From Acidimicrobiia bacterium (GTDB taxonomy: Bacteria; Actinomycetota; Acidimicrobiia; Spongiisociales; Spongiisociaceae), in assembly GCA_009841105.1 (NCBI GenBank), contig VXMM01000060.1:1-35842 (forward strand): a DNA stretch of 35,842 nt. The letters are read 5' to 3'. The notes beneath the pieces are model-generated. The model did not search any database. It was not told the origin of the DNA and worked only from the letters and a program-made list of their open reading frames with translations. Position 1 is the first letter of the stretch; each line of letters opens with the position of its first letter. Positions 12,588 to 13,043 of this stretch are shown piece after piece. A program made the position numbers and the translations under genes.

Positions 12588-13043
12588 TTAGGGGTTGATC
12601 GCCTGCTGGAGCACCTCTAGGGCGCGGTCGGAGTGGAGGCGCATGTTCAACTCGGAGCGCACGGTCCGCAGCACCGTGCCGTCACGGTCGATCACGAACG
12701 TGCGCCGCTTGTCCGGAAGGAAACGCCCTCGCGACACACCGAAGCTGCGGGCGATGGCACGGCTCGGGTCGGCGAGCAGCGCGAAGCCCAGGGAATTGGC
12801 GTCATCGAACTCGAGTTGCCGATCAACCTGATCGGCGCTGATTCCCACGATGCTGGCTCCGAGTTGGGCGAACTCTGCTGACAGGTCGCGGAAATAACAG
12901 CTCTGGCGCGTTCAACCCCGGGTCATCGCCTTCGCGTAGAAGTACACCACAACGGGCCCCGTTTCGAGCAGGTCGCGCAAGGCCACCGTGGTGCCGTGCT
13001 GGTCCGGCGCCTCGAAGTCAGGCGCCCGGTCTCCCACCTTCAC
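12588..13043 (-). CDS. PrxQ/BCP-type peroxiredoxin with in-frame TGA at the catalytic cysteine (candidate selenoprotein)
   Basis: Read through a single TGA, this is a 151-residue thioredoxin-fold peroxidase of the bacterioferritin-comigratory type: KVGDRAPDFEAPDQHG, VVVYFYAKAMT, then TGA, TRQSCYFRDL, GASIVGISAD, and a C-terminal NMRLHSDRALEVLQ. The family has AMTPGCTxxxC here; the TGA replaces exactly the peroxidatic Cys (position 44), and the resolving Cys is kept five residues on (Cys49). Both halves are in one frame with no other stop. The GTG start has a perfect AAGGAGG nine bases upstream. Selenocysteine insertion would give a complete enzyme that reduces peroxides in the cytoplasm; a nonsense mutation or sequencing error is the alternative. 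It is divergent from the BKACE operon. Confidence 0.78.
12912..12914 (-). other. UGA codon at the peroxidatic position (possible Sec codon)
   Basis: The TGA lies between GGT (Gly43) and ACG (Thr45) and replaces the Cys codon of the PGCT active-site motif. Downstream, an imperfect hairpin can be drawn at 12889-12868 (GCGA, bulge, CUG, loop UCAG, CAG, bulge, UCGC), with its loop about 31 nt after the UGA. This is within the range of bacterial SECIS elements but weak, so recoding remains unproven. Confidence 0.55.

Follow-up and report, generated by a model that had tools for sequence, protein, structure and literature searches.

Selenocysteine-containing peroxiredoxins (Sec-Prx; PF00578, with a TxxU motif) are an established bacterial family, with 91 proteins from 78 organisms in a 2016 listing and 253 sequences from the GOS survey (PMC1794560, PMC2398784, PMC5029168, PMC13188914), and the Pro of their PxxxTxxU motif is called highly conserved in a 2026 review (PMC13188914). 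The bSECIS model describes a stem of 4-16 bp with a small loop beginning with G and 16-37 nt between the UGA and the apical loop; according to the same review, some bacterial selenoprotein genes depart from this model and may represent SECIS classes of their own (PMC13188914). Here, we analyzed a 35,842-nt stretch of DNA from an Acidimicrobiia bacterium (the window; contig VXMM01000060.1), which carries on its minus strand a gene for a PrxQ/Bcp-type peroxiredoxin, prx (12588-13043; 151 codons, GTG start), with an in-frame TGA codon very probably read as Sec. Like the published Sec-Prx, which occur in Sec-decoding bacteria, it has the AhpC/TSA fold, Thr at -3 and a UGA, very probably for Sec, in place of the peroxidatic Cys codon; unlike them, it belongs to a PrxQ/Bcp-type branch of Acidimicrobiia, has Ala or Ser instead of the Pro at -7, and has its hairpin at +83. 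As a protein, it adds a further member to the known Sec-Prx (TxxU) family, and its recoding signal appears, from sequence comparison, to be a displaced, stem-bridged SECIS. The Cys-containing PrxQ/Bcp orthologs of Acidimicrobiia, for which 5epf is the nearest solved structure, are of the same family, have the resolving Cys and share ~47-59% identity with prx, but they have TGC/TGT at the site, lack the hairpin and have kept the Pro at -7 in 23/23 sequences.

The frame of prx runs from 13043 to 12588, and the TGA at 12914-12912 (codon 44) is its sole in-frame stop codon, giving a read-through translation of ...YFYAKAMTRG-U-TRQSCYFRDL... around it. With the TGA read through, the product matches AhpC-TSA (PF00578, E 3e-35); the closest solved structure, PDB 5epf (E 3e-39), is that of a peroxiredoxin with its Cys opposite the TGA, and column comparison of the Sec and Cys orthologs places the codon at the same peroxidatic position. 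These results bear out a sequence-only reading of this DNA, which had described a PrxQ/BCP gene whole but for one in-frame TGA, located precisely at the peroxidatic Cys, and had named Sec at such a site as a known theme, as the published TxxU family indeed shows. That reading had also pointed to a resolving Cys five residues on, which we find at codon 49 (TGT, 12897-12899) at the distance typical of the PrxQ/Bcp subfamily, and to an AAGGAGG before the GTG start, which lies at 13059-13053 with a 9-nt spacer; a purine-rich stretch also precedes the start in relatives. Scored against the PrxQ-type equivalogs of NCBIfam, prx reaches none of the curated cut-offs (best 105 of 140 bits).

In the active site, Thr at -3, which forms the TxxU part of PxxxTxxU, is kept in every case. 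The residue at -2 is Arg in the window, as the sequence-only reading had remarked of the Pro before the active site, and we further find that the Pro at -7 of the Prx motif (PxxxTxxC) is Ala. This position is Ala or Ser in the genus of the window and Ile, Gln or Leu in other Sec orthologs; altogether it is not Pro in 7/17 Sec orthologs vs 0/23 Cys orthologs (p 0.001, a statistic that ignores kinship). The resolving Cys is present in all genus members and in 23/23 of the Cys orthologs compared, and is missing in a few distant Sec forms (L018, L019, L179, and L196). The losses of the -7 Pro and of the resolving Cys suggest a relaxed constraint once Sec is present.

Among the nine other genomes of the genus, prx was found in eight, being absent only from G009, and the TGA occupies the identical codon in 8/8, without any frameshift found in these eight orthologs. 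The suspicion that the TGA is not a chance nonsense hit is thereby upheld, and the decay that frameshifts in close relatives would indicate was not seen. The nine prx sequences of the genus differ by 75 synonymous and 27 amino-acid changes, 50 of the 75 synonymous ones lying after the TGA, and the approximate omega is 0.12, with purifying selection on both sides of it. Thus, the part of prx downstream of the TGA is translated and selected.

Across 395 genomes searched in the class, the orthologous group presented either TGC/TGT or TGA at exactly the peroxidatic column, the TGA in close relatives and the Cys codon in more distant orthologs. A tree reconstructed with this column masked grouped 28 Sec forms with two Cys forms (support 91/91) and placed the Sec pair L018 and L019 apart from this main cluster, so that it needs at least three changes between the Cys and Sec states. 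Scanning a genome collection with a sequence pattern returned 118 stretches, and the 80 loci inspected read as peroxiredoxins from many phyla with the same motif and Sec at the same site, a few of them running into a contig end or a gap. The nearest relatives are placed in Acidimicrobiia, several of them from sponge-type metagenomes.

Several of the loci met in these searches differ from prx in architecture or motif. A second Sec-peroxiredoxin subfamily occurs in the same family of organisms (G010 C31, G011 C1, and G013 C252; L049-L051), with the motif WWY(A/T)KAATEGU and also missing the usual Pro at -7, and a third Sec-Prx type, FYVFDFGNIUS, is without the TxxU motif (G036 C5; L052) and shows a hairpin UUGUCCC-AGUUC-GGGACAA downstream of its UGA. 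In Poribacteria, two tandem peroxiredoxin domains share one frame (L059, L066, L061, L090, L099, L100, L121, and L125), and L059 and L066 carry a UGA at the Cys site in each of the two domains. On G013 C131 (L020, L054), the Sec-prx of the window is matched to about codon 60 and the frame diverges beyond, which probably points to chimeric joining or recombination where the assembly is contaminated, or to a copy that has decayed. In G003, ~5.7 kb from the intact gene, a stretch of 46 codons (G003 C38:26865-27002) matches the C terminus of prx at 74% identity and is perhaps a decayed duplicate.

The genome has the complete set of selA, selB, selD, and tRNA-Sec. The tRNA-Sec scores 77 bits and has a UCA anticodon, selA scores 435 bits and is directly adjoined by selB, and selD carries an in-frame TGA of its own. 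A formate dehydrogenase alpha gene, fdhA, with an in-frame TGA (G000 C21; L216) is a further selenoprotein gene of this genome. The tRNA-Sec is found in 10/10 genomes of the genus, and selB exceeds its family cut-off in 20/21 genomes with Sec-prx vs 13/27 with the Cys form (Fisher p 5e-4). The sole Sec carrier without selB over the cut-off, G001, has tRNA-Sec, and its missing selB is therefore probably an assembly gap. Together with the TGA kept in relatives and the Cys in distant orthologs, this machinery supports the Sec reading of prx that the sequence alone had suggested.

Rfam returned only chance matches on the prx region, and the canonical range of 16-37 nt past the UGA contained nothing convincing, since the window can form no more there than a 4-bp stem closing a 14-nt loop. 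The hairpin that the sequence-only reading had singled out as weak (12889-12868) can form in the window, but it is broken in most genus members (changes in S-A to S-E), and we rejected it as a SECIS. L018/L019 show another short hairpin, GUCAY-UUYC-GUGAC, which was likewise discarded as a common element because it pairs poorly in the genus of the window. Folding energies relative to synonymous shuffles gave the same z for 81 Sec and 18 Cys genes, providing no evidence of a SECIS from energy. In Poisson tests, synonymous depletion was weak in codons 45-58 (p 0.49) and stronger in codons 59-72 (p 0.008, uncorrected for the choice of codon range), a depletion that became intelligible only once the two stems described below were known.

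These stems, H1 and H2, were obtained with RNAalifold on the Sec orthologs. H1 is a long stem-loop, GCUG..AUUUCCGC / GUGGGAAUCAGC, covering codons 48-69 (12837-12901, minus strand) and starting 10 nt after the TGA; it contains an inner hairpin of the GAGUUCGCC-GAACUC type (12875-12861, minus strand) with its loop ~41 nt past the UGA. H2, directly 3' of H1, is the 8-bp hairpin GCCGAUCA-GGU-UGAUCGGC in codons 70-76 (12818-12836, minus strand), and its GGU loop (12828-12826) lies 83 nt after the UGA. We propose H2 as the SECIS, which places this candidate outside the stretch from 12915 to 12850 in which the sequence-only reading had suggested looking for the element. Like the canonical bacterial SECIS of E. 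coli fdhF, H2 is a coding-region hairpin with a G-first loop (GGU) and an 8-bp stem; unlike it, H2 is located at 83 nt instead of 16-37, with a directly abutting 65-nt stem-loop intervening.

Pairing in H2 reaches 95.8% across 18 Sec orthologs, compared with at most 52% in slid controls and 34% in the 23 Cys orthologs, and none of 500 shuffles attained the observed value. Double changes occur in five of its eight pairs (e.g., CAG-GTT vs CCG-GTG; C-G for U-A; U-A for C-G). For H1, 91% of the cells are paired in Sec orthologs vs 71% in Cys orthologs, with few double changes; therefore, H1 is less certain and in part a by-product of the protein sequence. When single genes were shuffled synonymously, an equally long hairpin with a comparable loop arose in 0-4% of trials. 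Since H1 and H2 were picked after viewing these sequences, the genes left out offer the cleaner test: the held-out Sec genes retain H2, and with the covariance model R1 the three left out of its building score 103.8, 95.6, and 95.2 bits, compared with 57 for the highest-scoring Cys ortholog. Over the 395 genomes, all R1 matches of at least 78 bits are Sec-prx genes. The element does vary, the H2 loop being GUG instead of GGU in the distant Sec members L085, L102, and L117 and in the held-out L200, and H1 having mismatches in L085, L102, and L117.

Synonymous codon use was compared between 17 Sec and 23 Cys orthologs over 49 codons, with p values from 3e-7 to 3e-4 that are inexact, the sequences being related. 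The four strongest differences concern codons 71, 67, 43, and 66. GAT at codon 71 is used in 16/17 Sec vs 3/23 Cys orthologs, GGA at codon 67 in 12/17 vs 1/23, and GTG at codon 66 in 16/16 vs 7/17, and these three codons fall in H1/H2, 66-83 nt from the UGA. At codon 43, just before the UGA (12915-12917), GGT is found in 15/17 Sec vs 4/23 Cys orthologs, for which we found no explanation.

H2 is called a SECIS because two other genes of the same genome, fdhA and selD, also have GGU-loop hairpins after their UGA, at +18 (GUCGCC-GGUCU-GGCGGC) and +32 (GGCGCA-GGUUC-UGCGCC), respectively. The selD hairpin is retained in related genomes with a compensatory pair, and loops of a similar kind lie at +21 to +28 in some Sec-Prx genes from other phyla. 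The presumed SECIS of selD in this lineage resembles that of prx in its order, the UGA being followed by a hairpin and then by a directly abutting GGU-loop hairpin, whereas it differs in that the first hairpin is short and the GGU loop, at +32, is inside the published range.

Our preferred reading is that the TGA of prx very probably encodes selenocysteine, the product being a UGA-encoded Sec peroxiredoxin with H2 as its SECIS, bridged by H1. More specifically, we consider it probable that this is a two-stem bacterial SECIS, in which a GGU hairpin 83 nt away is bridged by the abutting stem-loop and the spacing is measured in three dimensions and not in nucleotides. From the sequence comparisons we infer Sec insertion at the UGA, the bridging by H1 and the catalytic cycle, with H2 as the putative SECIS that SelB binds and that H1 brings close to the ribosome. 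SelA would make Sec-tRNA(Sec) with selenophosphate from SelD, and SelB would deliver it while recognizing the GGU-loop hairpin H2, with its loop 83 nt after the UGA. Once folded, H1 would remove ~65 nt of the path and abut H2 with no spacer, leaving an effective distance of ~18 nt between the UGA and the H2 loop (10 nt plus the 8 nt of the H2 stem), a normal reach for SelB. Thus, prx would use the two-stem order of selD, with a longer first stem folding out the extra distance. In the enzyme, the selenolate would reduce peroxide, and the resolving Cys49 together with a donor of the thioredoxin type would regenerate it.

Two explanations would dispense with Sec altogether. The TGA could be a nonsense mutation of the Cys codon in a pseudogene, or a sequencing error, and the loss of motif prolines (-7 Ala, -2 Arg) could resemble decay; nevertheless, the TGA is kept in assemblies of nine species with strong purifying selection downstream, recurs at the corresponding codon in less closely related Acidimicrobiia as well as in other phyla, and coexists with a Sec machinery in the genome, which leaves this explanation with almost no credibility. 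The conservation of the UGA by itself leaves the amino acid unnamed, so it might be recoded otherwise, through an altered genetic code that reads it as Trp or Cys, or through simple readthrough that inserts no Sec. However, the UGA is confined to the Cys site of a redox enzyme whose orthologs have TGC/TGT there, the genome has tRNA-Sec and selABD, which occur together with the UGA form, and UGA appears to be the stop of several prx orthologs of the genus (L010-L012), making such recoding highly improbable.

The position of the SECIS leaves somewhat more room for discussion, as the 83-nt spacing, over twice what is usual, breaks the published 16-37 nt rule (PMC13188914) and thus counts against the preferred reading; our search of the open-access part of the literature found no bacterial SECIS with long spacing. 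Sec could be inserted with the inner hairpin of H1 (12875-12861) as the SelB-binding element and H2 as an accessory. Its loop, ~41 nt after the UGA, is just beyond the published range and nearer to it than that of H2, it is G-first in several orthologs, and the hairpin is 86% paired in Sec orthologs. Against this, the hairpin is unpaired in L179 and L196, its loop is not G-first in L177 and L092 and is CGCCC in the window, only one of its six pairs shows a double change, Cys orthologs keep 71% of the pairing, and the GGU loop common to fdhA and selD sits in H2; we therefore regard this arrangement as unlikely. It is quite improbable, too, that H1/H2 form some other RNA element, e.g., for translational pausing or mRNA stability, with the true SECIS elsewhere: the spacing is indeed unusual and the link between H2 and SelB is drawn from sequence, but H2 occurs only in Sec forms, its spacing from the UGA is constant, and its GGU loop matches those after the UGA of fdhA and selD in the same genome.

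The prx gene belongs to a peroxiredoxin branch that shows Cys and Sec forms interchanging, and in which an otherwise constant active-site Pro has been lost several times, in Sec forms only. If the preferred reading, with H2 as a SECIS bridged by H1, is true, a displaced, stem-bridged hairpin would explain one of the SECIS classes that do not fit the current model and would widen the rules used to search for them, and the question of how SelB measures distance would become directly testable.
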